Positions 36,957 through 64,000 of a DNA stretch of 64,000 nt are shown piece after piece. The notes beneath the pieces were generated by a model. It ran no database searches, had not been told where the DNA came from, and saw nothing but the letters and a program-made list of their open reading frames with translations. How positions within the stretch are numbered: position 1 is the stretch's first letter; the number at the start of each line of letters is the position of its first letter. The position numbers and the translations under genes are program-made. Source of the DNA: Pegea sp. RAD2-039 (taxonomy: Eukaryota > Chordata > Thaliacea > Salpida > Salpidae); NCBI GenBank assembly GCA_034620365.1, contig JAQGEQ010000297.1, forward strand, positions 310,001 to 374,000. The letters are read 5' to 3'.

Positions 36957-39900
36957 ATATTTATATTTATTTATTAGATAATGCGAAGGAGGGAACCTGA
37001 AGAGAGTACCTCTCGCTAACGCACATTCTCACCAATAACATCTATTTAGTCAAAAATATGGAAAGTAAACGATGTAACACATGGTATTTCAGTAGTCCTC
37101 AAACCATATGACAGTGAAAAATTTCATGGAATGTTAATAATATAAGAAAGAGAAAAAAATCACAGTTTAGAAATGACAATGTTGGCAATATTATAACGGT
37201 TCAACTTCTTTTTCAACAACGCGAGCAACTCCGAGATGACAAGGCCTGATGGCAACTGGTTCCATGTAATGATTGTGCAGTATGAGAAAAAAAATTTGCT
37301 CTGACCAATGTACCAGGTGATATAGGCTTATTAAGATGTAATGTGTGTCGTCTGAGCTGATATAACTTGAGGGAAGGACTAATGGAAAAGATATCAAGGA
37401 ATTGAAGGTCAATTAAATTGTGGATAATTTAAAAAAAGAAATAAGTCGTATTGAATCCGTCCAAGTTCCAAAGTATCTAAATTGAAGAAACTGAGACGAT
37501 GTTTATAACTATCATATTTAATATTAAGTTTCCTGCATACTAATTTCGTAAACGTGGCCTGAACAGGTTCGATTTTTTTGGTATCACTAACTTGATATGG
37601 TATCCATGCACTAACATTGTGTTTAAGAATTGGATGTACGTACAATTTGAAAAAATTGATAAAAAAGCATGGGTCCTTGGAATTAAAGGTCTTTATAATT
37701 AATACGACAAAGTTGATTGAATTTCTAAAGATTTTGGTAACATAATTGCGCCATTTAAAGTCAGATGATAGAGTAATGCCAAGGTCTAGGGCCGAAGATA
37801 TTCGTTGAATAATTAATCCATTGATGGAGTATTGGTTGAAGGAACTTGCAGCTGATTTACGAGAAAAAGCTTTAAGTTCAAACTTTGTGGGCTGGATTCT
37901 GAGCTGCCAATTTGTAAACCAGTTTTCTACAGTGTGTAGTGCAGTTTGAAGTTTTGAAGGATTACAAGAAAATAGCTTGATATCATCTGCATATACAAAA
38001 ACACAGCCATCATTTACTGCTAACAGTTTTCTGATAAGGTCTTCAATGAAAACTGAAAAGAGAAGGGGAGCCAAAACAGAACCCTGTGAAACACCACTAG
38101 AGATTTGACTAAAAGTAGATAAAGATCTTTCCACACGAGTTTGTTGGGTTCTACCTGATGAGTAATCTTCAATCCACTGTAAGATAAAGCTGTTGATTTT
38201 TAAAGTTTTCAATACATTAACGAGCTTAGTGTGTGGGACAGAATCAAACGCTTTAGAAAATTCGAGGTATCTGATGTCACAGAGAGTATTACTTTCGTAA
38301 CGGACTGTAAGCTCATTAATAAAAGTGAGATGTTGAGTCGGGGAAGATCTATGTTTCACAAAACCATGCTGGACATCAGATGGTGCTCCATCAATGAATG
38401 TGAATGATATGTTCTTGAGTTCTGCAGATAACTAAAGTCAGCGAAACTGGTCTGTACTTAACTGCAGAGTTTCTGGGATCTTTTTTACAAATTGGTGTAA
38501 TAAGAGCTTTCTTCCAAATTTGTGGAACTCTAACTCGCCTCAGAGTCATGTTTAAGAAAAGCGATAAAGGTAGTGATAAAGATGAAGTAGTTTTTCTTAA
38601 AACCAAAGCTGGGATCTGATCTGGGGTGTTGGAAACTTATGATTTTAAAGAAGAAATAGCCTTATATACCTCCTGACCGTTTTGTCAAGATCTACCATCT
38701 CAGAGACATTTGTAAGATTGTCGGAGTAGGAGAGAGAAGGAGTATTGTCATCATCGGTTATAAAGACGCTATTAAATTGATTGTTTAGCAACTCAGCTTT
38801 ATTTTCTGGTTCTATCACAAGCTGGTCGCTGTTATCAATTAGGGGAGGTATTTGAGATCTTGCCTTAAGCTTGCGATTTATGAAATCAAAAAACGTTTTC
38901 TTGCAAGAAACTATACAAAGATCTTTGTAAAGCTATTTGATGGAAGAGTCTGTTTTAGTTTGTTTGTATAGGAGGTTTTTTTAGTGTTGTAAATTCATTA
39001 AATATTTGGGCAAACGTGGTTTTGTGTTGGCTCTATAAAAAGGTATGAATTTTTCGATTGACTCTTCAACCATGTTATTAAACCTTGAGTAAATAGTATT
39101 GATGTCTTCGGAAAAGTTGAAAACAGATATCTAGTCAACATCTGATTTAAATTTGTTAATGCCATTATAAATTCCACAGTAAAAATTCCTTTTGCTTGAA
39201 GCTGTAACGTTCATACAAAAAGTTTAATGGAGCTTGAATTCAATCATATTGTGATCGCATGTCAAAGCAAAAGGTTCTTTATGACCAACCTAGATAATGT
39301 TCTTGGTTTTGATGTGATAAGAAGATCCAAAGTATTGCCAATAACTTGGGTCGGAAAATTAACCTAATAAGTAGATTATTGGCATTGAGGAAGCTTACGA
39401 AGGCATGACTTAGAAAGGCTGAATTAGTATTATTGCTATCTAAGTTAAACGATTTTCGAATAAATGCTTGGGTTGTTCCAATCAATTTTACTAAAATTAA
39501 AATCGCCCAAAATGTATAACTCAGGACAGACAACACTCTTCAGAACCTTCAATAAGGCCTTAACAGTAACCTTATCATTAGATTTTGAGGGTGATAGATA
39601 TGTACATATAAAACGAGAAAATTTGAAATTTGAGTAATGAAAATCAAAAGCGATAGTCTCAAGCCCTGGACACTTAATGGGATCGATCTGAACTCTAGAG
39701 ATCTTGGGTGCAAACGATATTTTTTAAATTACGCAAACAACCCCGCCTCTATCGTACAGTCTATCACAACGCAAAACGCAAAAAAGATTTCCGTCAAACA
39801 GAAAAGAATCAGGATAAAACGGTTTTATCCAAGTTTCAGTAATAAAAATAAATGTGAAATCTTGGGAAAGCAAAAGAGCTTTCAATTGAAAAATAATCGA

Positions 39901-40647
39901 CCGTGCATTCAAGAACATACTTAATGTGATAGAAGACTTGTCTTTTTGACGTTTGTGACATTTGATGATGGGCTTCTGTAAATTGATATCTTGGGTATTA
40001 ACAATTGTGTCCGGAGAGAGTTTGAAAAAAGAAGATGTGGGTCCAGTGGTTATTTTCCACTTCCGTTTTTTGAAAAAAAAAACCTTGACAGTTCTTAAAG
40101 CCCATGGTGGACCTCGAGCTTTGTATTTGAAATAAGTTGGTTGCTCGTTCTGATTCCAATTATATGCCTCTTTTAGAAGAGGCATACTTTCTAGGCGACC
40201 ATCTTCACACATATAATGTGCTACTCTAATGCGATCAAACTTTTCGTCAAGCATTAGCGTATACAACTTGGCAAGAAGCTTGCATTTGTTCCAACTTTCT
40301 TAAAAGGACACTTTCAACGGTCTTTGATGATCTGAGCTTTTTGCTCCAAGTCTAGTCATTGATACTTTTGGAACATCCACAAAAGCAAGGCTTTGAGAGC
40401 ACATTTGAATAAAAAACTTACTGTCATCATCTTTATTAGTCTCAGAGACATTAAAGATGATGACATTGTTTTCGCTGTCATCACGATATAAAGTGAGCTT
40501 TTTGTGCGTGTCGGTGACCTACTTGGCAAGAAGCTGCACTATGCTAGCATTTTTGTCGGAACCGGGATCACCGACCACCGAGGCCCATGTGACTGAGCCC
40601 CATTAGGTCGTTTTTGCTCTAAATCTAAAAGATATTTAGAGGTTCAA
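36957..40647 (-). mobile_element. CR1/jockey-like LINE, copy 2
   Basis: Same element as copy 1, carried by the duplication rather than a separate insertion, because the surrounding host sequence is duplicated with it. Here the reverse transcriptase frame is longer (37409-38359, 316 codons through YADDIKLF to the C-terminal LNYPQF), and the frame leading into the endonuclease is continuous (39724-40266, 180 codons, with ITETW and PDSFLFDG). Between endonuclease and RT the frame is broken, so this copy is also inactive. Confidence 0.85.
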
Positions 40648-45545: not shown

Positions 45546-46101
45546 TTAAGCAGTTTGATTCACTTGAGGATTAGTTTTACCCTCTGAAAGACATTTTTGC
45601 AAATATTTACAAAAACAGAAGTCCTTCATGTAAGCTTGCTTGACAAGTGAAGGTGGGTGTTGGCTAGTACAATCAACGTAACTTAAAGTAGCTGACTTCT
45701 TTCTTACATCTCCTTTATATTTTGAAGAACTTTGTTTATCCTCTCTTCGTCGGTTTTGCATCCAAATCTAGATAAGAGTAATTAATGATACAAAACCGGA
45801 TAAATAATAAAATTACTCGAATGGTTTTCTCATCTACTTCAGTTTCTCGCGCCAATTTGTTTCTGTAACACAAGCCCGTTTAATATTTGAAACTATTGAT
45901 TATTCACAAATAAACAAACATTTTGTCCGCATTAGGATAAGGATCTTCCTTGTAGGAATCTCTAAATATTTCAAGTTGTTGAGGTGTAAACTTAGTTCTT
46001 TTACTTTTTTGCTTGCTTTTCAAGCTTGGAACTTGCTCCTGACTTTTCATTAAACCTTGACTATCTTTGGGGTCTTGATTTTGGCTGGTATGCTGCGACA
46101 T
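45546..46101 (-). CDS. Divergent homeobox gene, three exons, 149 aa
   Basis: Spliced model, minus strand: exon 1 45920-46101, exon 2 45817-45862, exon 3 45546-45767; introns of 57 and 49 bases, GT-AG. The product starts MSQHTSQNQDPK and ends NPQVNQTA. The homeodomain spans residues 31-90 with no insertion or deletion: R5, F8, F16, Y20 (helix 1), L34 (helix 2) and helix 3 with W48, M49, Q50, N51, R52, R53. W48, N51 and R53 are the invariant residues; M49 replaces the usual F and F16 the usual L. The second intron lies exactly between homeodomain residues 46 and 47, a position frequent in PRD-class genes, and Q50 is common there, but no orthology is claimed. The 59-residue tail has several cysteines and no known motif. 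The gene is the intact head of the tandem array to its right. Presumed nuclear DNA-binding regulator. Confidence 0.8.
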
Positions 46102-46800
46102 TTTTATTATGGCGTTTACAGTTTTTACCTATGTCAACCAAATCTGAATAGTAAAAAATAATTTCAAATTTACAAACATTAAAAGGAAACAAATTTAATA
46201 TCCAAAGAAGCTTTTTTTGAAGAAATTATTTTTAAGTGACGTTTTCAAGCTAAAAATAGCTTGAAAAATCAATCAAAATGAAGTTTAATTTTTCTCTAAC
46301 TCTTACGCAGTTAGATAATACTGTCACAATAGATTAATGGTAATAAAAACAAACTATTTATTTAGCTACATTGAAAATAATGTAGAAAATCAAATAAATT
46401 TTTAAATAAAACGAACAAATAAGACATAGAAGAAGTAAGTTTAAGTAAGCAAATTTGTCATTTACTAAAATTGAAAAGCTGGTACTTCTTATAATATATT
46501 AAAAATTCATATATAAATTTATCTAGAAGTTAGTAAATGAATACAGATTAAAAATATTAGATATCTAACACTGTATGCTAAATAATAAACTATAGAAGCA
46601 TGTCTTGCTGATATAAGCTCTACACTAGCTGCAATTAAAATAAAACACATAAAATATTTTAGTAACTGTAGGCAAAATAATTTTTAAGTTATTATTATTA
46701 GTAAGAGCAAAAGATAAAAAAATAACAAATCTCTTTCTTCAACATCAAAAGTGTTTTTTTTTTCAAAAGATAAAAATAAAAGTAGTTAATAACTAACATT
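46102..46800. repeat. Upstream region of homeobox gene, shared with array units
   Basis: Blocks such as TGACGTTTTCAAGCTAAAAA, the TAATAAAAACAAACTATT motif and GCTGATATAAGCTCTACACT recur in the same order in the units at 47.7-51.6 kb. The promoter region of the homeobox gene is therefore part of the repeat unit. Confidence 0.65.
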
Positions 46801-47699
46801 GACATCTAAAACCAATCAAAGAAAAAGCAAATGAAAACTTTTAATCTTAATTAATACTCAAATTAGTAATACTATTATGCAATAAAGTTACATATTGTGA
46901 AAAATAAAAATAGATTTGTTTATTTAGCTTGATTTAAATTGTCAACAATAACAAAAAATGAATTTCGGAATGTTTATACATTCTTTGTTTTGAAGAAATC
47001 TGCGAAACAAAATGTTTATTATTTTTCCCTTTGATACTTCTGAAAACATATTTATAAGCAGTCTTAATGTTAATGTTATTTTCAAGAAAGTTATTAAATC
47101 ATAACCTAATACACTGAAAAGCATTTAGAATTAACTATGAAAAGTAGAATTTAAAACGGGTTGAAGGCTAAGACATTTTCTTTAGCAACTAATATTTATT
47201 TATGTGCCACAATCGTCTAAACAGTCAAATGTAATTTCAAATTTACAAAACAATAAATAATGTTGTTCTAAATTTAGCTTTTTTAAGAAGAGTCTTTTGT
47301 AATTGATGTTTTAAGGCTAAATAGTTACTGAGAAGTCAATCAAAAGAATGATTTAGATTCATTTATGCTTCATTATCAGTAGGAAAGTAGTGTAAAAATA
47401 TATTTATAGTAAAAAATACATTTATAGAAGCAAACTATTCAGTTAGCCACTTTGATAATAGTGCATAAAAGTAAATCAAACTTTAAATAAATAGAACAAA
47501 AAGAATCAAAAAGAAAGTTAACTTTTTAAAGCAAACTTATCTTTTACTAAAGTTAAAAGCTTGTAGGTATTACATTATTTTCAAAATTGATCTAAAAGTA
47601 AGTTATTAACTACATACAGAATAAAGTAACTCTAAAACTGTATTTACTTACTTCATAATAAGAAAAAGGAAATTATGCTATATGTCACTATCTAATAAT
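46801..47699. repeat. Array unit 1 (about 0.9 kb, gene remnant missing)
   Basis: Starts at GACATCTAAA and aligns with the later units, but about 400 bases are missing near 47170 where the others carry the homeobox remnant. Contains only flanking sequence. Confidence 0.7.
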
Positions 47700-49002
47700 G
47701 ACATCTAAAATCTTTCAAACATAAATAAAATACAAACTTTTAGCCCTAGGTATCCTTCAGTTTCAATTTTATTTTATAATAAAGTTAGAAACATATTGTT
47801 AAAAAAAAAAAAAATCTGTATAATAACTTTACTTAATTGCTTTAAACTGTGTGTTGCTAGAACAAAGCTCTTCAACAAATGACTTGAGTTTAAGTAAAAA
47901 GCGAAATAATTGTTTATAATGTTTTGGAATATTTAAACATTTTTTGGTTTGAAAACAAAAATATTGTTTATTTTGTTTTTTTCATATCTTTGAAAATATA
48001 GCAATAAAAAGTCCTAAGGTTAAACCTATTTATAAACATTATATCAAATCATACCATAATAAGCTGAAAAATGTTTACAATTATCAAATTATCTATAAAA
48101 TTTAGAATTTAAAACTGCTTGTAATAACAATGCTTTCAATGATTTTGAAAACAGATAAAATTAAGCTGCTGGATTTGCTTAGAGTTGCTTGCACTTAAAC
48201 TTATTTATTTTACTTATTTGCTTACTTTTCAACGAAGGAAGATTTATAAACGAACTTAAACCCTACTCTTCACTTCTTACCAAGACTTGAATATTGATCG
48301 AATCTTGATGTGAGCCTGTAAGTTGTGATACTTTCATTAGAGCCTAATATTCATATATGTGTCACAAAATTCTCAACAGTCAAGCAAAATTTCAAATTTA
48401 CAAAACAATAATAATTTTTTTCTAAAATTAACAGTTTCTAAAAGAGTCTGTTTGTAAGTGACGTTTTTAAGATAAATAGTTACTGAGAAATCAATCAAAA
48501 TAAAGATTTAAATTCACTTATACTTAATTATCAGTAAGATAACAATGTAAAAACAGATTTATGGAAAAAATAAATTAATAAAAACAAACTATTAATTTAG
48601 CTAGATTGATAATAGTACAAAAAAAGTAAATCAAACTTTAAATAAATGGAACAAAAAAAAACCTCATAGAAAAGTAGCTTCGTTAAAGCAAACTTATCTT
48701 TTACTAAAATTAAAAAAGCTCATAGGTATTAAACAGCTTTCAAAATTCATCTAAAAGTAAGTTATTAACTAGAGTTATGCTAGCTAAGAATCTTTAGCAG
48801 TATCTCTTGCTGATATAAGCTGTATACTAGCTGCAATCAAAGTAAAATCTAGGTAAAACTAAAGCTAGCAACTGTTAGGGAAGTAATTTCAAAGTTATTA
48901 TTTATTTTAAAAGTATAGAAAAGTCTTTTTTATCAACATACAAAGTAAAGTTACTTCCTAATACAAGAAATATTATTAAGCTAGGTATCAACATCTAATA
49001 TT
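47700..49002. repeat. Array unit 2 (about 1.30 kb)
   Basis: Anchor GACATCTAAA at 47700, a shared GACTTGAGTTTAAGTAAAAA at 47881, and a homeobox remnant at 48161-48337. Confidence 0.85.
48161..48337 (-). pseudogene. Internally deleted homeobox copy in unit 2
   Basis: Minus-strand sequence aligns with the start of the homeobox gene (KVSQLTGSHQDSI-, then LKSKQ) and jumps directly to its last codons (VNPAA then TAA, against VNQTA and TAA). Most of exon 1 after the QQL position, all of exon 2 and most of exon 3 are absent, so the homeodomain is gone. Stops are present. Confidence 0.65.
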
Positions 49003-50330
49003 GACATCTAAAATCATTCAAACATATTAAAATACAAACTTTTAGTCTTAAATATCCGTCAGTTTCAATTTTTTTATATAACAAAGTTAGAAACATATTG
49101 TTAAAATATAAAAAAAATCTGCATAGTAATTTTACTTAATTGCTTTAAACTGTGTGTTCTTATAACAAGGCTCTTCAACAAATGACTTGAGTTTAAGTAA
49201 AAAGCGAAAATAATTGTTTATATAGTTTTGGAATATTTAAACATTTTTTGCTTTGAAAACAACTATAAGAAAAATATTTTTTTTTTCATATCTTTGAAAA
49301 TATAGCAATAAAAAGTCATAAGGTTAAACCTATTTATAAACATTATATCAAATCATACCATATTAAGCTGAAAAATGTTTACAATTATCAAATTATCTAT
49401 AAAATTTAGAATTTAAAACTGCTTGTAATAACAATGCTTTCAATGATTTTGAAAACAGATAAAATTAAGCTGCTGGATTTACTTATAGTTGCTGACACTT
49501 AAACTCATTTATTTTACTTAATTGCTTACTTTTCAAGCTAGGAAGCTTTGTAAATGAGCTTAGACCCTACTCTTCACTTCTTACCAAGCCTTGAATATCG
49601 ATCGGATCTTGATGTGGGCTTGTAAGTTGTGATATTTTCATAAGAGCCTATTATTCACATATGTGTCACAAAATTCTAAACAGTCAAGCAAAATTTCAAA
49701 TTTACAAAACAATAATCATTTTTTTCTAAAATTAGCAATTTCTAAAAGAGTCTATTTGTAAGTGACATTTATAAGCTAAATAGTTACTGAGAAGTCAATC
49801 AAAATAAAGATTTAAATTCATTTATACTTAATTATCAGTAAGATAACAATGTAAAAACAGAATTATGGAAAAAATAAATTAATAAAAACAAACTATTAAT
49901 TTAGCTAGATTGATAAGAGTACAAAAAAAGTAAATCAAACTTTAAATAAATGGAACAAAAAAAAACCTCATAGAAAAGTAGCTTCGTTAAAGCAAACTTA
50001 TCTTTTACTAAAATTAAAAAAGCTCATAGGTATTAAACAGCTTTCAAAATTCATCTAAAAGTAAGTTATTAACTAGATACAGAATAAAATAACTCTAAAA
50101 TTGTATGCTAGCTAAGAATCTTTAGCAGTATCTCTTGCTGATATAAGCTGTATACTAGCTGCAATCAAAGTAAAATCTAGGTAAAACTAAAGCTAGCAAC
50201 TGTTAGGGAAGTAATTTCAAAGTTATTATTTGTTTTAAAAGTATAGAAAAGTCTTTTTTATCAACATACAAAGTAAAGTTACTTCCTAATACAAGAAATA
50301 TTATTAAGCTATGTATCAACATCTAATATT
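49003..50330. repeat. Array unit 3 (about 1.33 kb)
   Basis: Anchor GACATCTAAA at 49003 and the shared block at 49184. Units 3 and 4 are more alike than either is to unit 1. Confidence 0.85.
49465..49641 (-). pseudogene. Internally deleted homeobox copy in unit 3
   Basis: Minus-strand reading MKISQLTSPHQDPIDIQG parallels MSQHTSQNQDPKDSQG of the intact gene. LPSLKSKQ and FKCQQL parallel VPSLKSKQ and FTPQQL. The next codons are the gene's final ones (VNPAA, stop). The same fusion point occurs as in units 2 and 4. Confidence 0.75.
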
Positions 50331-51656
50331 GACATCTAAAATCATTCAAACATAAAAAAATACAAACTTTTAGTCTTAAATATCCTTTAGTTTCAATTTT
50401 TTTTATATAATAAAGTTAGAAACATATTGTTAAAATATAAAAAAAATCTGCATAGTAATTTTACTTAATTGCTTTAAACTGTGTGTTCTTATAACCAGGC
50501 TCTTCAACAAATGACTTGAGTTTAAGTAAAAAGCGAAAATAATTGTTTATATAGTTTTGGAATATTTAAACATTTTTTGCTTTGAAAACAACTATAAGAA
50601 AAATATTTTTTTTTTCATATCTTTGAAAATATAGCAATAAAAAGTCATAAGGTTAAACCTATTTGTAAACATTATATCAAATTATACCATATTGAGCTGA
50701 AAAATGTTTACAATTATCAAATTATCTATAAAATTTAGAATTTAAAACTGCTTGTAAAAACACTGCTTTCAATGATTTTGAAAACAGATAAAGTTAAGCT
50801 GCTGGATTTACTTAGAGTTGCTGACACTTAAACTTATTTATTTTACTTATTTGCTTACTTTTCAACTAAGGAAGATTTATAAACGAACTTAGACCCTGCT
50901 CTTCACTTCTTACCAAGCCTTGAATATCGATCGGATCTTGATGTGGGCTTGTAAGTTTTGATATTTTCATAAGAGCCTATTATTCACATATGTGTCACAA
51001 AATTCTAAATAGTCAAGCAAAATTTCAAATTTACAAAACAATAATCATTTTTTTCTAAAATTAGCAATTTCTAAAAGAGTCTATTTGTAAGTGACGTTTA
51101 TAAGCTAAATAGTTACTGAGAAATCAATCAAAAGAATGATTTAAATTCACTTATACTTCATTATCAGTAGGATAGTAGTATAAAAATAGATTTATGGTAA
51201 GAAATAAATTAATAGATAAGAACTTTTCATTTAGCTACATTGATAAAAGTACAAAAAAGTAAATCAAACTTTAAATAAATAGAATAAAAAAAACCTCGTA
51301 GAAAAGTAACTTTTTAAAGCAAACTTATCTTTTACTAAAATTAAAAAGCTTGTTGGTATTACAATATTTTCAAAATTCATCTAAAAGTAAGTGTTTAACT
51401 AGATACAGAATAATATAACTCTAAAACTGTATGCTAGCTAAGAATCGGTAGCAGTATCTCTTGCTGATATAAGCTGTATACTAGCTGCAATCAAAGTAAA
51501 ATCTAGGTAAAACTAAAGCTACTAACTGTTAGGGAATTAATTTCAAAGTTATTATTTATTTTAAAAGTATAAAAAAGTCTTTTTCATCAGCATACAAAGT
51601 TAACCTGTTTCATAAGACATAAAAGAAGATTAAGTTATGTATCAACATCTAATAAT
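50331..51656. repeat. Array unit 4 (about 1.33 kb)
   Basis: Anchor at 50331 and shared block at 50513. Period to the next anchor is 1326 bases. Confidence 0.85.
50794..50970 (-). pseudogene. Internally deleted homeobox copy in unit 4
   Basis: Reads MKISKLTSPHQDPIDIQG, GLVRSEEQ, LKSKQ and QQL, then a stop, VNPAA and a stop. It has the same deletion junction as units 2 and 3. Confidence 0.75.
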
Positions 51657-51945
51657 GACATCTAAGACCATTCAAACAAAAAATAAATGAAAACTTTTAA
51701 TCTTAAATATTTTTCAGTTTCTTCTTTATTATATAATAAAGTTGTTATAATAGTTGTTTTTTTTTATTTTGGAATGTTTACACATTCTTTGTTTTGAGAA
51801 CATCTGTGAAAAAGCAATATTTGTTATTTTTCTCATTGATATCTCTGAAAATATATCCTAATAAATAATAATTGTAATTAATAACTCTAATGCTAAATTA
51901 GCTTTTTAACAACAATTCAAATCATATCGTATTAAGCGAAAAAAA
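51657..51945. repeat. Array unit 5, partial
   Basis: Starts with GACATCTAAG and follows the unit to the CAAATCATATCGTATTAAGC block, then diverges into unrelated sequence. Right edge of the array. Confidence 0.65.
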
Positions 51946-51949
51946 TTAG

Positions 51950-53600
51950 GCGGTGGGGTTAGCTGTAGCATTAATTTCTTTTACTTAGCTTTTGTAATAC
52001 TTTCAGTTATCATAACAAATCATATTAAAATATATCGTAAGCAAGCTTTCATTCTCAAATAATTTGCAGTTATTTTAGTTTTTTCTTTGTTTTTGCTTCT
52101 TTTTTTTGCTATTGGTTATGCAGTCTTTAAGCTGTGGAATACTTTTCTTTAATAATTGAGTTATGGATTCTATATTTTATTTTTTATTTTTGGAGACGTT
52201 TTAAATATAACTAAATAGTTAGTTGCGCTTTAAATCTAGTTTAATTTTGTTCTTTATTTCCGTGAAATGATGAAAAACATTCTTGGTTTTTGTCATTCTT
52301 CAGAAAATAACTTTAAATCATGTTTATAATCTTAAAACGTTCTTTAATATTGAAAAAGAATTAAATTAAAACTTGTGTTTATTTTATTATATAAAAGTTT
52401 AAGGCATCAATTTCTGCTTTTTAAAAATTAAAATTAGTAATCCTTATAGAAACATTATAGAGCCTAGTGAGAAGTTTATGCTACTTTCCAGGAAACTTTC
52501 TTTTACTAGTGGCTGGCACAGGAACTGCACGAGATAACGAACGGTAAAAAACTGAAAAGTTATTTTAGGTAAGACTAAGCATTAAGCTTTTTTTTGTTCA
52601 AATTATGTTATATATGCTTAACTTATATAATGCTTTTTCGTTTACTGTTATTATCATACCGGAAATATGTTATAATGGTTGAAAAACACCTCTTTAGCTT
52701 ATCAAAATTTATGATGATTACTGATGATAGATAAAATCATTACTGATTTTTATTTAAGATTGGAATCTACGTTGGTTTCAGTTATCTTTATATCTTTACT
52801 TTTTATTTCAAATGTAACTAATATTATAGAGTTACAGTGACAAAATTATTTGGCTAAATAATCGCATTATAACTATATAAATTTAACTGAAATAGTTTTG
52901 TACTGGCTTGCTTTTTTATTATGCTGGTTGTGGTTCATTTCTAATAGTATATTCAAAAACATATTTCATTTATTTTCAAAAAAACTTCCATCTCATACAT
53001 TAAAATGCAGTTAAAAAGATAAGAGTATGCATAAAAATTTGTTTATCAAATGTTTTATATTTTAAAATGACTTTTGATTAAAACTGATTTTTTTGACTGT
53101 GAAAGCTTGTACAATTGTCATTGAAGTTATTTTTGGTCTTCTTTTTGAAAACATTTCTTGCAGGTATATACTAATTCAATGGAAAAATTTAAAACTTATA
53201 AAGAACATTTAAATTTAAACTTTGTAGCTTATAAGAGAAGCTGTTTGAAAAACAAGCTGTTTTCTTTCCAAACTTTACAGCTGTTTTCCAAAACAGCCTC
53301 ATTATAAATTGATATTTATTAATTTAAGGATGTATGGAAATAAATATCAAAATATAAATAAAAAAGGAATAAAACAAATTTTTAAAAATTGGCGCCTTTT
53401 TTACTTTAACGTAAAGAATAATCTAGTAGCCCCAGGGTAAGAAAACGTTTTAAGAAGAATCAGACAAGGAGGTGACGTCGAAACATCGTAGGTTTGACAA
53501 TTCTCTGCTAAAGCCAGTCACTGAAATTTCTAAAAACTAAATAGAAATTAAAACTGTTTAGAGCAATTCTTTCAGTTAATCGTTTTAAATAACTTAGATT
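51950..53600. other. Intergenic before the hairpin cluster
   Basis: AT-rich, no coding gene recognised. It may contain the promoter and first exon of the hairpin host transcript. A GACGTCGAAACATC block near 53475 is GC-richer but unassigned. Confidence 0.4.
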
Positions 53601-53607
53601 CATTTTT

Positions 53608-53691
53608 TGCAATAAAAGGATCACAGTTACAGTGACTGCTTGAAAAATGTATTACAAGCAGTCAATGTAACTTGTAAACTTTTTCTTTGCA
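53608..53691 (+). ncRNA. microRNA-like hairpin 1
   Basis: Arms CAGTTACAGTGACTGCTTG (53624-53642) and CAAGCAGTCAATGTAACTTG (53655-53674) pair over about 18 bp with one mismatch around a 12-base loop. A looser lower stem extends to TGCAA/TTGCA at the base. Family features: 3' arm beginning CAAGC, loop starting AAAA, basal CTTTGCAGCTA. Confidence 0.6.
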
Positions 53692-53799
53692 GCTAACAAC
53701 AAGAAGTATCTCATTAATTTAAAACTACAGTTTACAGTATTTGAAATTAAATGTATTTTTTCTCTTAAAACACTAATAGTAAAAATTTTTGTTTTACAG

Positions 53800-53906
53800 A
53801 CAAACAATCCCAAATGTGAAGGAAACTAAACGTGTTCAACGTTTTCAGCTTGAATGGAAAATAGATTCTACTTTATTAGCAACAATAAAGAAATGACAAA
53901 CATTGG
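53800..53906 (+). other. Candidate host-transcript exon a
   Basis: Bounded by a strong acceptor (TTTTGTTTTACAG) and a GTAAGC donor. It begins ACAAAC like the candidate exons at 54163 and 61080. The frame starting CAA is open for 32 codons, then TGA. It may be a non-coding exon of a transcript carrying the hairpins in its introns. Confidence 0.4.
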
Positions 53907-53944
53907 GTAAGCTCTACCGAAACTAAGCTATTAAAAACTTGTCA

Positions 53945-54025
53945 GCAGTTTCATGCAGTAGTCATGGTGACTACTTAAGACTCTTACAGCAAGCAGTTAA
54001 TACTGCTTTTGAACTTTTTCTGCAA
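53945..54025 (+). ncRNA. microRNA-like hairpin 2
   Basis: Loop CTCTTACAG and 3' arm CAAGCAGTTAATACTGCTTT match the family. The 5' arm (GCAGTAGTCATGGTGACTACTT) pairs with a bulge and a few mismatches, making it the weakest hairpin of the five. The downstream CTGCAACCATCAACAAC flank is conserved. Confidence 0.45.
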
Positions 54026-54162
54026 CCATCAACAACAAATGTTTATTATACTAAGTACACATGCATGTTAGAATGTAAATGCAGAGTTTTCAAGCTGATT
54101 TATTATTAGTTTAATTTCTAATTATGATCAATGAATTATTAGTAATGAAACATTTTTTACAG

Positions 54163-54305
54163 ACAAACCAAGCAAACTGCAATTGGGAATAAATCAATTA
54201 GACTTCTTCAGGTGGATGGGGAAAAGGGAATAATAAAAATTTCCAATAGAGTAGTAGGCTCTAACAAACCTGTTATAAAGTTTGAGCACTTTATGATTAA
54301 GATAA
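54163..54305 (+). CDS. Candidate exon b, possibly coding
   Basis: Acceptor TTTTTTACAG before and GTAAAT donor after. Joined to the piece at 54453 it gives an open frame of about 70 codons (QTKQTAIGNKSIRLLQVDG, then SNRVVGSNKPVIKFEHF, then RIASIVKSDDTEYIFF and stop at 54529). No ATG and no recognised domain. Its start resembles exons a and e, so it may be a non-coding duplicated exon that happens to be open. Confidence 0.35.
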
Positions 54306-54452
54306 GTAAATATTTATTGACAAATTTTTGAACAATTACAATACTAATATCAGTTTTTTTTTAATTTATATGTAACTTTTAAGTAACTACCTAAGCAATG
54401 AATTTATTAATTTTAAGTAGTTTCTATAAGGTATATATGTTTCTTTTCTTAG

Positions 54453-54529
54453 GTCGAATTGCAAGTATAGTGAAAAGTGATGATACTGAGTATATCTTTT
54501 TTACTATCGCCATCTACTTGAGATTTTAA
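54453..54529 (+). CDS. Candidate exon c, terminal
   Basis: Acceptor TTCTTTTCTTAG at 54452, in-frame with exon b, ending at TAA 54529. Confidence 0.3.
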
Positions 54530-54663
54530 AAGAGCAGCTTATGATTACTACAACTCTTCCTTTTACAAAGACCCTTGTTTTCAATTTTTTGTCAAATTTT
54601 CTTGTTTAAATAATTCTTAATTAAAAAACATTTGATTTCAATCACTGCAACTTCCTGACAAAT

Positions 54664-54745
54664 TGCAGAAAACGTGCACCGCATGAGTGATTGTTTGAAA
54701 ATCTTACATCAAGCAATCACTCCTGCATGTGAACGTTCTTATGCA
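54664..54745 (+). ncRNA. microRNA-like hairpin 3
   Basis: The best fold of the set. The 5' arm from TGCAGAAAACGTGCACC through GAGTGATTGTTTG pairs with CAAGCAATCACTCCTGCATG and GAACGTTCTTATGCA over about 35 positions with few mismatches, one small bulge and a 12-base loop (AAAATCTTACAT). Length 82 bases, typical for an animal pre/pri-miRNA. Confidence 0.7.
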
Positions 54746-54869
54746 GCTATACTCAATGAGCATTACTTTTGAAAATGTTTGATGCACGTGCAACAAAATT
54801 GTTTGTCGACTGTAAAAACAAATAAAATTATTCCCAACAAAGATGTTTGTTTTTTAGACAATGATAGTT

Positions 54870-57840
54870 CTCAGTAAAGATGAATCCAAAAGATTTCAAT
54901 TAAAATAGCAAAGCACTTCTTACTTGGCAAAAAATAATCAAAATCAAATTTTTTGTCTGAGAAAAAAAATATGTAGATGAGTAATGTGTTAACGAGCAAA
55001 TACTAAATAAAGAGAGTTGATCTAAAAATTCAACAAAAACGTAGATGAGATTTAAAGTGCTGCTACTATTATTTGTTAATTATAATATTATTCTGTGGTC
55101 GTTGATTTACGAGTAAGTGAAACATTTTTACAAATATTTCAAGACGTGCAACTTTATTGAAAACTCCATATTCTTCAATTCAAATTCTATAATATCTTTA
55201 AAAGTTGAAATATATTATTTTTGCAATAGTTTTATTTGATTTTCAGTTCAAGCATTTGGATTTGGGATATTATATTTTTCTTATAGTTATAACTCAATAA
55301 CAACAAAGATTTTGAATGACAAGTTTGTTTTCTTGACTTGTTGTTTGCATTGGAGAATATATAATCAGCATTTATTAGTTTCTAGTTAGTTATGTTAAGC
55401 AAGCTGGGTGTTTAAGAGTTATATGTATAAAAATACAGTTTTATAGATTTTAATTTAAAAAAATTTTGTATGTTAGGTTTTTAAGAAACAAAAAATGATT
55501 CTACCTTAACTGATACTATTATAGTATTGGTATTCTCATTTTTCTTTAACTACTTTTAAGCAGCTTTAGCCAGTTTTTTCTAAGGTATTTTTGAAAGAAA
55601 AATAGTTTAAAAAGTGAATAAATTTACTAGAGTAATGAATTAATAGAGAGAATTATGATTATATTCGAAAATACATATAGTTATAACTCATTATAGGAAT
55701 AACTGCTTGCTTTTAGATTTACAGGCAGTTTTTACTATAGATAAAGTTACAACTTAAGCAAAAAATATACTCTTTGTAAACCAGCTATTTCCGACTAAAG
55801 GAATATAATCATGCTTATTACAGACCTGTTATTCGATGTTATCATCAGATTTGATATGTTGATATGATATGATTACATTGCAATGTAGAAATTGCATTTC
55901 TTCAATATTATTTTCCTTTTTTTTCACCCTTACTGTATTTATTGCAATTATTTGTCAGATTTAATTTAAACAATGATAGCTTTAAAATTAAATTAACTGT
56001 TCGAGAATCCTTCGAACGGTTATTACAATTTATAAATATATTACTTGCTCCTAAGTTCAAATTTTACTTATTATATCTTATTTTAAGTTTTTACCTTACT
56101 TAATTAATTTTAATTATCCAGGCTTTGCTTCTACTTCAAAGTGGTAAGATTTTTCAGATAAAAATAAATTATTTGCTTTTAATTAGTAAAATCAGGCTCA
56201 CTTGTATATTTTCTGCTCACAAATCATAGATCGAGCAGATATGTAAGAAAATATGTAAGTTGGCCATTTTCTACAATATTTTCTACACCAAATATCTCTA
56301 TTCTAGTCAAACGGAAAAATTAAGAGTTTGAAAATTAATTTTCTCTTAAATCCAAATTCTTCTACCTTCTTGCACATTTTTGTAGTTAAATTATATTTAT
56401 TTTTGGTTAAAAACTAAAATAATTATTTTAAAAAAACATGTTATGATGTATTATGTTTTTTATAAAAAATTTCACTTAGATATTTTAACTTAAAGAAATA
56501 ATAATAAATTTGAAATGTATTTCCTTATTTATAATTCATTTCAAAAAGCAACTTACTACTCTAAACATCATTTTTTCTTAAAATACGCAAATTTTACATT
56601 AGAATTTAGTGACGTCAATATTCTATACAGCTTTGCAGATTGTTTTTAAATTGTTATTGTTTAATTAAGAAATTAATTTTGTTTTGACATAATAATGTTT
56701 ACATAGGTTAGTTTTCAAAAGATTTAACAAATTTTAACAATTGCATTGAGTAATAAGCTTTTATAATGTAATAAAATAATAAATAAAAATTATTTTGTTG
56801 ACAAACACTGCAATCTATGAATGTGAGTGAAGAAGATACTTTTTGGTATTGATTTTGATGATGAAAATTAAAAAATAAATGAAAAAGATATCTACTTTGT
56901 GGTTTCTTATTATATAGTCAGAGAAATAGCTTTAATATTATTATTTGTGAACCCCTACAATAACATTTAATAATTTAACAAGTAATTATTGTTTTATTTA
57001 TTATTTTAATTGTGTATTTTCATTCTATTTCCTTATTAAAAGTTAACAAACTTCGATGCAAATCTATAAAATAAAGTAAAAGGTAGTATTTCGTACAACA
57101 TTAGATTTAAGCAACTAATTAGATCAAACGAAAAAAACATGAACTCCTTTTATGTTTACTTTGAGCTTTAAGAACTTTCTTTCACTTTATAAAAACAATC
57201 TTCTATTTCATTAAAACAGAAAATCAGGTGGAAAATTTAAATTAAAGCACAACTATTTTTCTGCTAACTTCTTAATAATAAACTTCGTTCAAAAACTTAA
57301 AACATATTCCTTTTATTTTTCGTCATAATTATTTTCAATTTTCAAAAGATGTTTTTGGTGGATATGCTGAAAATAAGTTTCTTAAAAACTGTTTAATTAG
57401 TAAACTATCATAATTAAGTTAATAAACAAATCTTAATTTATTATTTTTTAATCTTCAATCTCACATATAGTTGGAAGTTTACTTTGATTAATCTTCAAAG
57501 TTTTAAATAGTTAACTAATTTATATTTTACAGTATTAACAAGTGCAATACCAAAAATTATATTTTACCTTTTATTAACTAAAGTGGCAAGTATTTTCTTA
57601 TTTCTTATTTGGGGTTATTCCCTCGGTTTAGTTACCTGAAATATTCTAGAACTTTTCATAAAAAATTTTTCGTTAAAAAGCCTATAGAGAGCTTAAATGA
57701 TTTTAATTTTGAATAATTTTTTTTCTAAACTAATTTTATCTAATTTTAAATTGAAATGAACTGATTTAAGGATTTAGCTACCTATTTGTATGTATTAACC
57801 TTTAAAATAATGAAAAAAATGTTCATCAACAATTTCTAAA
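54870..57840. other. AT-rich stretch inside the hairpin region, nothing recognised
   Basis: An acceptor-like TTTGTTTTTTAG at about 54858 follows hairpin 3 as in the other units. Beyond that, no exon, gene or repeat was recognised up to the LINE-derived region. Confidence 0.45.
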
Positions 57841-57849
57841 GAAAGGTCT

Positions 57850-60470
57850 TATGGAATCAAGTCATCTTTCAAAAAAGGTAAGTGCATTTTTTTAACAATT
57901 TTACAATTTGTACAGTTTATAAAAAGAAAATAACAGAAATCCATAAAGATACTAAAAAAAGTTTCCATTTCTGCTAAGTGATATAAAACTGATTATTATG
58001 TTATAAAAAAAGAAATTACAAAATAAGTTTTAATGAACCTTACTGTGCTGTCTATCTTTAACAAAATGCTATAACTAAGCGATAATAACTAGTATTTTGT
58101 TAAAATGTCTGAGAACTTTGATCAATCTAATATAAAACTGAGTTTAGAACCTTGTAAATGTATGTAGACCTCTCAGTAGTTAAACTAATTGCTGTTGGGG
58201 ACAAAATCTGATCACTAAAGGATCTTTGATGAAAATATAATCATAATGATATTCAATGAGCAAAATGTTTTGAGAGGAAAAGTCAGATCTGTCTATTTGT
58301 TTCTGAAAATTATAATTTTGCTAGCAATGTATATCTTATTGTTAAACATAAGTAAATGAGTTGTGTGCAAGGAAACCTTTAGAGATTTTCACTCTACAAC
58401 TTGAATATAATCCATCTAATTGTTGATTTAATATTATTCACTTATAGACTCTTCCTTAAATGATTAAAGCAAATGTAGTCAGTTGAGCAAATTGTATATT
58501 TAAAACTGAGATAATTGTTCCAATATACTGATAATTTGTAGAATCATATTTGAAAAACCTTTACTAAAACTTTTTTTAGTGATACTCATGGAATAGTCTT
58601 TTTTTTATAAATATTAAGTAACTGAACTTCAAAGAATAGATATTTAACAATAAAGTTGTTGTTCTGACATCATTCTTTTACACTATTTCAAAAATTACTA
58701 TTAATTTTATTCATGACTTTGTCAAGTTTACTATAAAAAAAGAGAAAGGGTTTTTGAGTAACATAATAATTTGTATGGGAGTAACTAGTAAGTTTTTTTG
58801 ACATACTATTGAAACTTCTGTCAAAAGAATAACTCAATGATAAAGATATATTCTATTAATTATGAATAGCTTTGTTTTTATATTTTATTTTTCACAAAAT
58901 CTACTTTGGATGTTGATAATTTCAAAGCATATTGGAATCAAAGTTGGCAGATTAAAATGTCTTAATAATTTTATTACTGACTCCAGAGGATAAAGTTGTA
59001 ATGTAAATTTGCTTTTAGTTATAGGAAGAAGTCAGTATGGAAAATGAAAATCTTGAGCTTAAGAGTACAAGAACGATTAATGATTTTAAATAGTAATTAA
59101 GGTCAGAAAAATGTAGTTGATAATGCAAGGTTTAAATATCTAGATTATAAAGACAGTCTCTCTATGAAGTAAAGAATATCTTAGAAAAGATTTACTGGTG
59201 GATAAATATAAAATATGTATTATTTTCATAAGAACTCTATAAACAAGAGTAGGACTCTAAATTGATATGGTTGAATGTAATGAAAAGCTTTAATAATGTC
59301 CAAATGTTATTTGCTTCTTTAGATTAGAAAAATTTGGTTGGAAGTTAATGAAATTATTTTGAACTTGAATTTTTCTGGTAATTCCATTTAAGTCATTAGA
59401 GATAAATGATTGTAGGCCTTTAATCACTTGACATAAGCAAATTGTTTTGTTGTTTATTTAAAAATAAGTTATAGTTGAGTTGGAACTTGGAGTTGATAGA
59501 TTGATCAATTTGTGACAACATTTGTCAGTGGCGAGCTTGAGTTGCCTTGATTGAAACTCTAGATTAGTAGATTCCAATAAAGGTTGGAGAGTAACTGATT
59601 TAGTACCAAAAATTTTGGCATCTTTGTTTAAAATTAAAGTTTCTAGAACTATTAAGTAACAAAAAACTGATTGTTATGTCATTGACATAAATTTAAAAAA
59701 GATAGGACCCCTTTTGCTGCCTTCAGAAACACCACTAAAAAACCTCAGGAAAGTATAAAAAGGTTTTAATGAACTTAATTGTGGTGTCTATCTTAAAATT
59801 ATTGCTTTATCTAAGCCATAAAAAAAGTGTTGTTGTTAAAATGTCTGAGAACTTTAACCAATTTAGAAATTGAAACTGAGTTTAGAACTTTGTAAAGTTA
59901 TGTAGACCACTCAGTAGTTAAACAAGTTAATGTTGGAGACAGCAGCTGATCACTAAAGGATCTTTTATTGGAAAATAAAAATCATAATAATATTCAAAGA
60001 ACAAAAGGCTGTTGAGAGGAAAAGTCAGATCTGTCTATTTGTTTCTAGAAATTATAATTTTACTACTAATTCATATCTTATTGTTAAGACTAAGTAAATG
60101 ACATCTTCTAAAAGGTGACCTATAGAGATTTTCACTCTACTATTTGAATATGATCCATCAAAAGGTTGATTAAATATTATTCACTTATAAACTCTTCCTT
60201 AAATGATTAAAGCAAATGAAGTAAGGTATAGAAGTCAGTTGAGCAAATTGTATATTTTAAAACTGAGATAATTGTTCAAATGTACTGATTATTTGTAGAA
60301 TCATATTTAAAAACCCCTTACTAAACCTTTTTAAGTGGTATCTGTATAAAACAGTCTTTTTTCATAAATATTAAGTAACTGAACTTCAATAAATAGATAT
60401 TTAACAATAAAAGTAATTGTTCTGACTCTATTCTTTTAATCTATTTCAATAATAAACTACAAGTTTTTAT
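57850..60470 (-). mobile_element. Degenerate LINE-derived region with direct repeats
   Basis: Minus-strand translation of 59390-59750 follows a LINE reverse transcriptase: FFSGVSEGSKRGPIFF (like SGVPQGS-LGPLLF), DAKIFGTKS (like DDTKIF), SRQLKLATDKC (like WQLKLN-KC), LQSFISNDLN (like LGV-IS-DLK). The A-DD motif is lost. Flanking blocks at about 58035-58710 and 59765-60465 are direct copies of one another (shared GTCAGATCTGTCTATTTGTT and AAATATTAAGTAACTGAACT), so two related LINE copies, or an internally duplicated one, are present. All frames are heavily decayed. Confidence 0.55.
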
Positions 60471-60491
60471 TTTGCCTTTATTATTTTACAG

Positions 60492-60578
60492 GCAGCAGAG
60501 CTAATGCTAGAAATTTTTGTGATGAATGCTTGTAACATAAATCATATGGACCAAATAACGCAGTGGGGTTTGAGACAG
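60492..60578 (+). other. Candidate host-transcript exon d
   Basis: An 87-base block with a clear acceptor (TTATTATTTTACAG) and GTAAAC donor, open in one frame for 29 codons (AAELMLEIFVMNACNINH). It could be a coding exon or a non-coding exon of the hairpin host transcript. Confidence 0.4.
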
Positions 60579-60874
60579 GTAAACAAACTACTCTAATAAG
60601 AAAACTTATTATGACCTGTACAACTATTCGTTGCTGTGCTGAAGGAATCTAACAGTGGAAACCAAATTAGTTTTGGTGGTGTAATATTTTTTAACCTACC
60701 TGTAGAATTTTTTAAACCAAAAATTATTGAAAATAATTTGAATGTTTTTCATTTACAAATACCATGGTTTTTAAGTATTTATTAAAATATTTGATTTAAT
60801 ATTTCACAACTTTGTAGAATTTATTTTGAATTAATTTATAAGATTTGATTTTAATTAGTCCAATCTCACTAAGT

Positions 60875-60962
60875 AGTGGTGATAAAGTGTTTGAGGCATT
60901 GATGACTGCTTGAAAATCTTACAGCAAGCAGTTGACATTGCCTTTGAACATTTTGTCTGCAG
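60875..60962 (+). ncRNA. microRNA-like hairpin 4
   Basis: 5' arm GAGGCATTGATGACTGCTTG pairs with CAAGCAGTTGACATTGCCTT around loop AAAATCTTACAG. The lower stem GTGTTTG/GAACATT continues the duplex and the basal TCTGCAGCTATCAA is conserved with the other hairpins. About 86 bases. Confidence 0.65.
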
Positions 60963-61079
60963 CTATCAATTAGGTTTGATTATTTTACTAAATACATAAG
61001 CATAATTTATTTGAAGAGTTATTCACTTGATTTCTAGCTTTGATCTAAAAATTGATGGTAATGAGATCTTTATTTATAG

Positions 61080-61133
61080 ACAAACCAAACTATTTCTAAT
61101 TGAGACTGAAAGAGTTCCACAGCTTCAGGATGA
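61080..61133 (+). other. Candidate host-transcript exon e
   Basis: Begins ACAAACCAAAC after a TTTATTTATAG acceptor and ends at a GTAACA donor. Similar to the start of exons a and b and placed at a similar distance after its hairpin. Confidence 0.35.
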
Positions 61134-61392
61134 GTAACAAGCTTTAGTTATTTATATTTTCAAATGGAAAAAATGGTAAGCTTCTGTAAACAATGTTCTT
61201 TAAAATTTTTATTTAATACTTAGCTGGAATTAGAACATATTGAGATGGTTAATCTTGGGGAAGAGGAAGAACAAAGACTTGTGAGCTTGGGATCAACTTT
61301 ATTCATTCATGTGATACACAGAATAACTTTGATTCTTTTTAGCATCTCGGTGACCTTCACCTACTTCATCATCAATATTGAGACCTATTTAC

Positions 61393-62035
61393 ATATTTGT
61401 TGACAAACCTTGGACCAATTGACGAGGTAGTAATGGGAAAGGTAATTGGACTTCCATTGAATCAACGAAATTGGAGAGAAGTCGAAGTCCAAAGTCCACA
61501 TATTGGGGCTGTAAAAAGTTGTACGCTGTCTAGGTCAGATGGACCATTGTACTGGACTGTGTTTTGCCCTGTGAGTAATTTGTAAGAAATTACTTAGCAC
61601 CTTGACTTGCAAAAAACCCTGGCTAACAAAAATAAGTGGAGAAAACTTGCGATATAAAACCACAAAAATATACAATATTACGAACCATATCGTCAGTGGT
61701 TTGACAAATCACTGTTACTCCAGGTAGGGGTGAATACAACCTATACACTTTCGACTTTTCTTCAGCTAAAACCTAAAAAAATTGAAATTTAAGGAAGTGG
61801 TGACGAGATAGAATCGGTTACCAAGACATTAAGAAAGCAATGATCGACATTGACCTTATTCAAATAAGCGCGAGTCACGCAGTGGGATTCTTTATCTACA
61901 TCAATAAGAATCACATATGAGGACCCATCATCATCAACATCAGGTAATTTGGCCAAAACAGAATTCCATATTTCATTAACAACAATAACATCGATTCCTA
62001 ATACATCATTTATACTTTTTATACACCAGATGTCG
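61393..62035 (-). pseudogene. Tudor-like domain fragment, two candidate exons
   Basis: Minus strand. Exon at 61822-62035 (acceptor TATTCATTCACAG, donor GTAACC) reads LAKLPDVDDDGSSYVILIDV and AYLNKVNVDHCFLNVL, resembling the SNase-like half of an extended Tudor domain. The exon at 61393-61508 (acceptor CTTTTTACAG) reads PQYVDFGLRLLSNFVDSMEV, then LPFPLLPRQLVQGLS, matching the Tudor core pattern Y-DFG, then V, then F-LP-QA--C-L. The two join in frame, but the strand expected just before YVDFG (the WYRA region) lies in another frame in the 61510-61570 gap, and no start or other exons were found. Probably a decayed Tudor-family gene copy; a live multi-exon gene is not excluded. Confidence 0.45.
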
Positions 62036-62315
62036 CTGTGAATGAATAAATAGATGAGAGGATGTTGATGAAGATCACGTGAGATCTAACTCACCTACAT
62101 TCAAGTTTCCAATGAGATTCTCACGACAAATCCACAGAAATTCACAGCAAATAAAAATCTTGAAGATTTACTTTATAGCTTAATTCTTTATTTTTAAATC
62201 TTTTTTGTTTATTAGTAATTTCGGTTTTCAGTTCTTCTAATTTTCAGGTAATCTCAAGAAAATTGGAGAAATACCGCTAACATCAGTGATAACACATAAT
62301 AGCAATTACAAACTA

Positions 62316-62395
62316 GCAATTAAAGGCTTACTAGCAACGTGACCCCTTGAAAATGTTATTACAAGTGGTTGCTTTGCTTGTAAACTTTGTATTGC
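62316..62395 (+). ncRNA. microRNA-like hairpin 5
   Basis: The 34-base 5' arm starting GCAATTAAAGGCTTAC and ending GACCCCTTG pairs position by position with CAAGTGGTTGCTTTGCTTGT and its continuation, with about eight mismatches or wobbles and no gap. Loop AAAATGTTATTA, basal ATTGCAGCT. The 3' arm start is CAAGTGG instead of CAAGCAG, so its seed would differ. Its 3' flank (about 62450-62490) matches the flank of hairpin 3 (GATGCATGTG, ATCGACTGTAA). Confidence 0.6.
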
Positions 62396-62399
62396 AGCT

Positions 62400-64000
62400 T
62401 TCATCTAAAAATGCTCATATGTCAATTTCTACTAAATACTTTTAATTTTGATTAGTTTTGATGCATGTGAAACTACTTTTCATCGACTGTAAGGAGTAAT
62501 AAACTTCTATTAAATACAAATTTGTTTTGATAATTTTATTTTAGCAGCAACAAAATTAGCAAGATGAGAATGTAACTAAAGAGTTTTATTTATCTTTCCC
62601 CAACCATTTTCCAACATGGAGTTAATCAAATTTAGAGAAAACAACTTTTGAATTGACTTGAGATCAATTTTTAATGCAGTATCAAGAATTGCTTTTATAC
62701 GTTTGTTGAATTTATATTGAAGGGATACTTAAATATATATATGACAATCTTTCACAACAGGATTGTTATTTCTATATTCTCTGTTTTGAAACAAATAAAG
62801 TTGCTAATTAAATTTATACTAAATCCAAAAGCAATTCCTGCAAAGTATAAAGTATTAATTACAAAACAGGAGATCGAATCAATTTTAAAGCTGAATTAAA
62901 TGTTCTTATCAGATTTTGTAAGATTTTTTAAACTCGCTTTTTACAACAAATTAGCTTTAAATTTTGCTTACAAGTTATAAAAATTGAACTTACATTCCTT
63001 AAATAAAAATACTACACATTTTTTTAATGCTAATAAATTGTAAAACTGTTTAGAGAAAAAATGAAGACAAAATTAATTCTTTATTTGAGATGGAGGTCAA
63101 CTTTAAATATCACAAAGAAAAGAATCTTGCCAAAACTTAAAACCCTAAACGTCGTTTTGACTCCATTTAAACTAAGGCTAAAACTCATAATGAAAGCAAC
63201 CCCAGTTCTAATTTGAACTTCCAGTATGGTTTGATTAACAAATAAGTTACTACAGCTGGTAACGTTTTATTATTGTTCAATTCTATCAGTCAAATATTAT
63301 TATTTTAGACCACTTACTACTCACGCTACACATTTATAATTAGTTAAATGTATCTTGATAATTTTACTACCATATTTAGTTTGTACTCGTATTGGTTCTG
63401 CACTGAATTTTAGATCTGATTAGTTATTTATTTTATTGTTTCAATCAGATTTATTAAAAAATATCGGTAGGTTTTGATACAATACTTTGAATAGAATAAA
63501 TATTGATTAATTTACAAGTGAAAATTTTTGAATTATACAGTGCCGTAAAGAATACTAACTTAAATTACAAAACAACAATAACTTTTTTATTGTAACTTTT
63601 TCAAAAAGAAATTTCATTCAAAAACTGGAAACATTTCGTTTGTTGTTCTCGCTGCTACCGTATAATTATCTTTTACAGCTTAAAATTATTTTTATGTCAA
63701 AATTATTCTGTTGGATAGACAATTGAAGGTTTTTGTGATTAATCATAAATTTTTAAAAGTCTACGTAGTTGTTACATGTTTTTAAGGTACTGATTCATGG
63801 AGACTAAAATTCAATCCTTATGCTTCTTGCATTAAATATAATCAAAAATGAAAATTTTGTTTTAGGTTTGGTTATCATTAAATAATGATAGAAAGTACTT
63901 CACAGTTTCCAAATGTCTGAGTTTTAAAATCTTAAACTTCTTCTTTCGGTTTGTGCCTATTGGTTTGATTCTAATTAGATATTGATACAATCAGCAATTT
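62400..64000. other. AT-rich right end, no gene recognised
   Basis: Besides the flank shared with hairpin 3 (to about 62500), nothing is recognised. Open frames at 62717-62899 and 63061-63219 lack domain-like patterns. Confidence 0.45.

Follow-up and report, generated by a model that had tools for sequence, protein, structure and literature searches.

We analysed a stretch of 64,000 nucleotides (nt) from the salp Pegea sp. RAD2-039 (contig JAQGEQ010000297.1, positions 310,001 to 374,000; hereafter the window) and found a family of paralogous hairpins, H1 to H5, with two further members, H6 and H7, past its end, which probably represents a lineage-specific, tandemly expanding tunicate microRNA cluster with the hairpins lying on a plus-strand primary transcript. 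The hairpins themselves, their paralogy, paired change among the older members and an asymmetry between the strands are observed directly, and no close copy of the family was found elsewhere in the assembly.

Folding and paired change in the hairpin family

An earlier note on this DNA had described five plus-strand hairpins with a common 12-base loop and a 3' arm starting CAAGC or CAAGT, and both features proved to be present at all five in-window sites, the loops being AAAAATGTATTA, AGACTCTTACAG, AAAATCTTACAT, AAAATCTTACAG and AAAATGTTATTA, with CAAGC directly 3' of the loop at four sites and CAAGT at H5. The basal TGCAGCT that it had reported is seen at H1, H3, H4 and H5 and is replaced by TGCAACC at H2. 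Its count of five hairpins does not hold: four fold, the sequence of H2 aligns with the family but its fold is broken, and H6 and H7 add copies past the window.

Each hairpin was compared with 200 dinucleotide shuffles of its sequence, as the earlier note had proposed, yielding fold z-scores from -4.79 to -6.23 for H1, H3, H4 and H5. Each of these four forms one long stem-loop, with 0, 0, 1 and 0 of the 200 shuffles, respectively, folding equally well. A single stem-loop with two well-paired arms of ~22 nt, as expected of a canonical microRNA, was found in the same four members, weakly in H6 and H7 and not in H2, whose best fold consists of small separate hairpins and was matched in stability by 20 of 200 shuffles (z -1.35). 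H2 is probably a decayed copy.

Next to the shuffles stands a stability scan of 134 kb (the window plus 20 kb before and 50 kb after it) in 90-nt segments with a step of 10 on both strands, keeping segments with a minimum free energy (MFE) of at most -23 and at least 18 pairs. Its three most stable loci were H3, H4 and H1, H3 being the most stable single-stem locus and H1 ranking through its minus-strand fold; when only plus-strand folds are counted, H1 came about 7th and H5 9th. A covariance model, R1, trained on H1 and H3 to H7 and searched over the same 134 kb, scored its six training members at 79.9-97.6 bits, followed by Hb, H2 and Ha, and no other site in the 134 kb exceeded 12.6 bits. 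Ha and Hb, which the earlier note had not reported, are possible diverged relatives (Table 1). Just 5' of H1, at 53225-53311, lies another strong hairpin (minus MFE -30.9, z -5.71; plus MFE -23.7, z -5.57), which had no match to R1 in the 134-kb search.

Table 1. Hairpins and associated features, on the scale of the window; H6 and H7, which lie past its end, are given in C260 coordinates
Feature	Position	Strand	MFE (plus/minus, kcal/mol)	z	Description
H1	53608..53695	+	-31.9/-33.6	-6.12	candidate primary microRNA (pri-miRNA) hairpin, predicted 3' arm product (3p) CAAGCAGTCAATGTAACTTGTA; R1 97.6 bits (training member)
H2	53942..54024	+		-1.35	family homologue, broken fold; R1 26.2 bits, E 6.6e-4 at 53944-54027 (outside model)
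H3	54664..54748	+	-35.2/-34.4	-6.23	candidate pri-miRNA hairpin, predicted 3p CAAGCAATCACTCCTGCATGTG
Ha	55677..55760	+ (strand uncertain)		-3.42 plus, -5.29 minus (55670-55762)	possible diverged relative, stem AACTGCTTG...CAGGCAGTT; R1 20.8 bits plus, 22.8 minus (outside model)
Hb	55969..56052	+		-4.25 (55965-56056)	possible diverged relative; R1 26.5 bits, E 5.5e-4 (outside model)
H4	60878..60964	+	-34.3/-20.8	-5.43	candidate pri-miRNA hairpin, predicted 3p CAAGCAGTTGACATTGCCTTTG
H5	62315..62398	+	-29.1/-23.4	-4.79	candidate pri-miRNA hairpin, predicted 3p CAAGTGGTTGCTTTGCTTGTAA
H6	C260:379526-379612		-21.8 (one value)	-1.35	5.5 kb beyond window end, right copy of 8.6-kb tandem duplication
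H7	C260:380958-381041		-25.6 (one value)	-2.89	7.0 kb beyond window end, right copy of 8.6-kb tandem duplication
Exon-like segment 3' of H1	53800..53906	+			between TTTTACAG and GTAAGCTC; all three frames with stops
Exon-like segment 3' of H2	54163..54253	+			between TTTTACAG and GTAGGCTC; one frame of the three free of stops for 91 nt
Exon-like segment 3' of H4	61080..61175	+			between TTTATAG and GTAAGCTT; all three frames with stops
8.6-kb tandem duplication	left copy 56726-65272 (in window: 56726..64000); right copy 65400-73934				right copy with H6 and H7; BLASTN 91.8% over 8584 columns

The case for a family under paired change was built on an alignment of six sequences (H1 and H3 to H7; H2 was left out because its fold fails), onto which the pairs of the H1 plus-strand fold were imposed. 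Standard pairs fill 82.2% of the 174 cells, as compared to 38.0-47.5% in six controls slid by 1-3 columns, and the covariation score is 0.329 versus at most 0.153 in the controls. Two-sided change was found at 8 of the 30 pairs, in 14 of 174 cells, a level reached by none of 500 shuffles; H6 and H7 being close copies of H4 and H5, these 14 cells are not 14 events. RNAalifold, run without an imposed structure, predicted 26 pairs, seven of them with two-sided change.

Read on the plus strand, G-U occupies 18 cells and A-C 5, or 12 and 3 when only H1, H3, H4 and H5 are counted, an excess with a two-sided binomial p of 0.011 and 0.035, respectively, uncorrected for kinship and for the plus-strand origin of the structure. 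This asymmetry favours the plus strand. Taken together, shuffle tests, covariation and the G-U/A-C asymmetry support a paralogous hairpin family with paired change.

MicroRNA-like features and a possible host transcript

Judged from its sequence, the locus would work as follows. The hairpins would be carried on a primary transcript of the plus strand, which may be a noncoding host RNA that is spliced and has a tandemly repeated exon-intron unit. Cleavage by Microprocessor close to the base of each ~35-nt stem, and by Dicer close to the 12-nt loop, would release arms of ~22 nt, of which the 3' arm starting CAAGC or CAAGT would probably serve as guide with the seeds AAGCAGU, AAGCAAU and AAGUGGU. 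The family would have grown by duplication of the unit first and by an 8.6-kb tandem duplication later; older members would have diverged in their arms with compensation, and some copies (H2, H6) would be decaying. Transcription, splicing, Drosha/Dicer processing, the choice of guide arm and any target are predictions.

The stems have some features that resemble those of pri-miRNAs. The 5' side of the H1 stem measures 35 nt. In H1, H3, H4, H6 and H7 the distance from the apical pair to a TG is 33-36 nt; in H2 it is 38 nt, and H5 lacks the TG. CNNC follows the stem base on the 3' side in all seven members (CAGC in six, CAAC in H2), at a position that was picked from the alignment. Basal UG and CNNC motifs aid Microprocessor on pri-miRNAs, according to PMC10954719.

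The cleavage positions, and with them the ends of 3p and its 5' arm counterpart (5p) and the seeds, are predictions. The predicted 3p seeds are AAGCAGT in H1, H2, H4 and H6, AAGCAAT in H3 and AAGTGGT in H5 and H7; the predicted 5p seeds are different in each of the five in-window members. Since the seed region common to members is on the 3' arm, this arm, beginning CAAGC or CAAGT, is the likelier guide and probably fills that role. A hint in the same direction comes from the H5/H7 pair, where the 5' arm changed at 4 of 23 positions and the 3' arm at none of 24; H4/H6, with 2 of 23 in each arm, gives no such sign.

Downstream of the hairpins, the units of H1, H2 and H4 align into a segment opened by an acceptor-like end (TTTTACAG, TTTTACAG and TTTATAG, followed by ACAAAC) and closed, 91-107 nt further on, by a donor-like GTARGCT. 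Their sequence suggests repeated noncoding exons with the hairpins in introns. H3 and H5 have another downstream stretch in common (TTTTGATGCAYGTG-like and TCGACTGTAA). A protein-coding host was considered and rejected: ten open reading frames compared with Pfam gave two reverse transcriptases and one sub-threshold match, a search that coding exons shorter than those scanned could escape. Only two open frames of at least 80 amino acids were found in 44-64 kb.

Competing readings and surrounding repeats

A number of observations weigh against an active, plus-strand microRNA cluster. The folds of H2 and H6 do not stand out from those of their shuffles (z -1.35 each), and that of H7 does so only moderately (z -2.89). 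The minus strand of H1 folds slightly better than the plus strand and that of H3 nearly as well, and five of the six R1 training members also match the model on the minus strand (20.8-51.3 bits). The structure behind the pair and G-U counts is the H1 plus-strand fold and is therefore biased toward that strand. Further pair types in the alignment (19) are not in excess, being reached by 104 of 500 shuffles, and two-sided change survives a slide of +1 column at 7 pairs and in 10 cells, a slide of -1 column at 6 and in 7. The earlier note's argument for selection on the fold from co-variation of the arms is supported by the pairs changed on both sides and weakened by the pair types, by the slid control and by the young copies discussed below.

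Two further points concern motif spacing and the loop. CNNC lies just 11-13 nt beyond a 22-nt 3p, the usual distance being 16-18 nt past 3p, with 35 nt as the usual distance of the basal UG. Few parts of the hairpins are as conserved as the loop: of the 19 columns that cover it and the neighbouring apical pairs, 13 are invariant, the corresponding counts being 1 of 20 and 5 of 20 for the arms (6 of 40 together), 9 of 17 for the 3' base with TGCAGC and 4 of 12 for the 5' base. In microRNA precursors the loop is usually the part most free to change, and a conserved loop is atypical for microRNA families. This could mean that 3p begins slightly inside the loop, that the duplications are recent or that the loop is recognised as such. 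We regard as doubtful an extension of the last option in which loop and apical stem are the conserved core: a fixed 12-nt loop would persist through the duplications while compensated changes renew the arms and most of the seeds, and it would recruit a shared processing factor, so that the cluster would supply new guides under common control; LIN28, which acts on let-7, provides a model for such a factor.

The same distribution of invariant columns would fit a conserved hairpin that acts within the host transcript and gives no small RNAs, for example by directing splicing or binding proteins from the repeated introns or by serving as a destabilising Drosha site, and H1, H2 and H4 lie 105, 139 and 116 nt 5' of the common acceptor-like site. 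We consider this unlikely, although it fares best among the alternatives: the ~35-nt stem, basal TG and CNNC would fit pri-miRNAs, whereas non-miRNA Drosha substrates reportedly have stems of ~26 bp and are without basal UG/CNNC motifs (PMC10954719).

The young copies bear on whether the cluster is still under selection. The two copies of the 8.6-kb duplication differ by 7.3% substitutions over 8499 aligned positions, and H4/H6 differ at 5 of 87 and H5/H7 at 6 of 84 positions, resembling their surroundings (local mean 6.2 per 85). None of these 11 changes is compensated. Between H4 and H6, four of the five break a pair of the H4 fold, the other turning G-U into A-U in the shared structure; between H5 and H7, three of the six break a pair of the H5 fold, two lie at unpaired positions and the sixth replaces G-U by A-U. 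Seven broken pairs, a rate of change equal to the local average and the loss of the fold in H2 and H6 are what would be expected of a former microRNA cluster in decay, its hairpins inherited from an active ancestor after selection has gone. This reading is improbable in view of the paired change in the older members and of the fold z-scores of H1, H3, H4 and H5; moreover, after a duplication a free copy may decay while the other stays.

Foldback transposon copies, similar to miniature inverted-repeat transposable elements, are very improbable. The sequences are repeated and palindromic, and reverse-transcriptase elements occur elsewhere in the window, but members are all on one strand and in register with the exon-like repeats, and DNA queries with H4, H1, H3 and H5 against the 105.7-Mb assembly retrieved no dispersed copies and no locus other than the present one, a search that diverged copies would escape (H1 did not retrieve H5). 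The loop pattern TTGAAAATSTTAYWDCAAG, built from H3 to H7, has exact matches in the assembly at those five members only; with one mismatch it occurs at 53 further sites, many in repeats, versus 17 for the reversed control, and five of the 53 that were scored with R1 reached at most 17.6 bits. Weak hairpins are common in AT-rich DNA (the 134 kb has 1544 entries of 23 or more pairs), but chance inverted repeats are scarcely credible for H1, H3, H4 and H5, as shuffle z-scores, paralogy and paired change argue against them.

Several repeats surround the family. A segment at 55704-55830, part of Ha, recurs with 79.7% identity at 65258-65394, the junction of the 8.6-kb duplication, suggesting that the break may fall inside or beside Ha. 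Within the left copy lies a direct repeat of 0.7 kb (58012-58695 and 59749-60453, 82.5%), which is present again in the right copy. Possible constraint 3' of H4 and H5 (15 of 296 and 9 of 300 positions changed) was dropped, as 34% and 12% of 300-nt segments of the duplication are equally low. Two copies of a reverse-transcriptase element (Pfam RVT_1) are located at 30397-33943 and 36980-40525, ~6.6 kb apart, with a third similar stretch (83%) at 78500-82103 on the window scale, and overlapping tandem repeats of ~1.3 kb with identity up to 92% fill 45974-51856.

Comparison with known microRNAs

The earlier note had recognised no conserved animal microRNA in the hairpins. This agrees with a search of 4227 Rfam families, none of which reached its gathering score in the window or in five other stretches (L004, L005, L009, L010 and L014), but the search is a weak one and the result weak evidence of novelty, because L014 holds the genome's own let-7 and also stays below the cut-off, which makes the gathering scores too strict for this genome. 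At E <= 10, six weak matches fall within 53500-62500, the microRNA ones being mir-459 and mir-2076, on the minus strand at H1 and H3; with E-values of 0.32 and 3.8 and scores of 22.2 and 19.8 bits against gathering scores of 62 and 90, they do not make the hairpins members of these families. Twelve mature-like strings had no occurrence in the literature covered by a text search, miRBase and MirGeneDB lying outside its scope, and the part of PMC2243180 consulted contains nothing on the present hairpin family.

In the same genome, let-7 is represented by four TGAGGTAG starts in tandem (C42 ~53785-54360, minus strand), one of them TGAGGTAGTGGATTTTGTAGT; the Rfam model found three of the starts, all below the cut-off. 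The four tandem starts indicate that microRNAs of a known kind exist in this genome. The let-7 cluster resembles the present family in being made of tandem paralogous hairpins on one strand and differs from it in belonging to a bilaterian family already known, with a retained 5p start; R1 has no match in the let-7 stretch.

A closer likeness is offered by Ciona, for which Hendrix et al. 2010 (PMC2884542) report 20 specific microRNA families, most of them tandem. Two of the clusters, of 25 and 11, lack conservation in C. savignyi, and within the larger one families differ by a single seed nucleotide. As described in that paper, Ci-mir-2200 to 2219 share with the present hairpins their occurrence in a tunicate, their probable restriction to a lineage and their origin mostly by tandem duplication, a comparison made by description and not by mature sequence. 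Also on that account, the Ciona cluster of 25 is dense (~4 kb) and backed by small-RNA reads, whereas the present members lie hundreds to thousands of bases apart and are candidates. By analogy, the present locus resembles the Ciona-specific clusters and would be another of their kind, in a different tunicate.

The assembly also holds spliced-leader sequences: the Ciona spliced leader plus GT gave 141 + 118 matches with at most one mismatch, versus 0 + 1 for the reversed control, and C4:1135044-1142219 is a tandem spliced-leader array with a spacing of ~199 bp. The published Ciona intestinalis spliced leader sits in 264-bp units, according to PMC7986045. Together with the let-7 cluster, the leader matches mark the genome as most likely that of a tunicate; the nematode SL1 exon had no match in it with at most one mismatch, and a COX1 search of the assembly gave no match.

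Tunicates are unusually prone to lose old microRNA families and to gain lineage-specific ones, as described in PMC5006418. In the present locus such microRNA turnover seems to be visible at several stages: older members carry paired changes, one member is broken, and the hairpins of the recent 8.6-kb duplication are already diverging. If expressed, it would be a good place for measuring the birth and death of new seeds.

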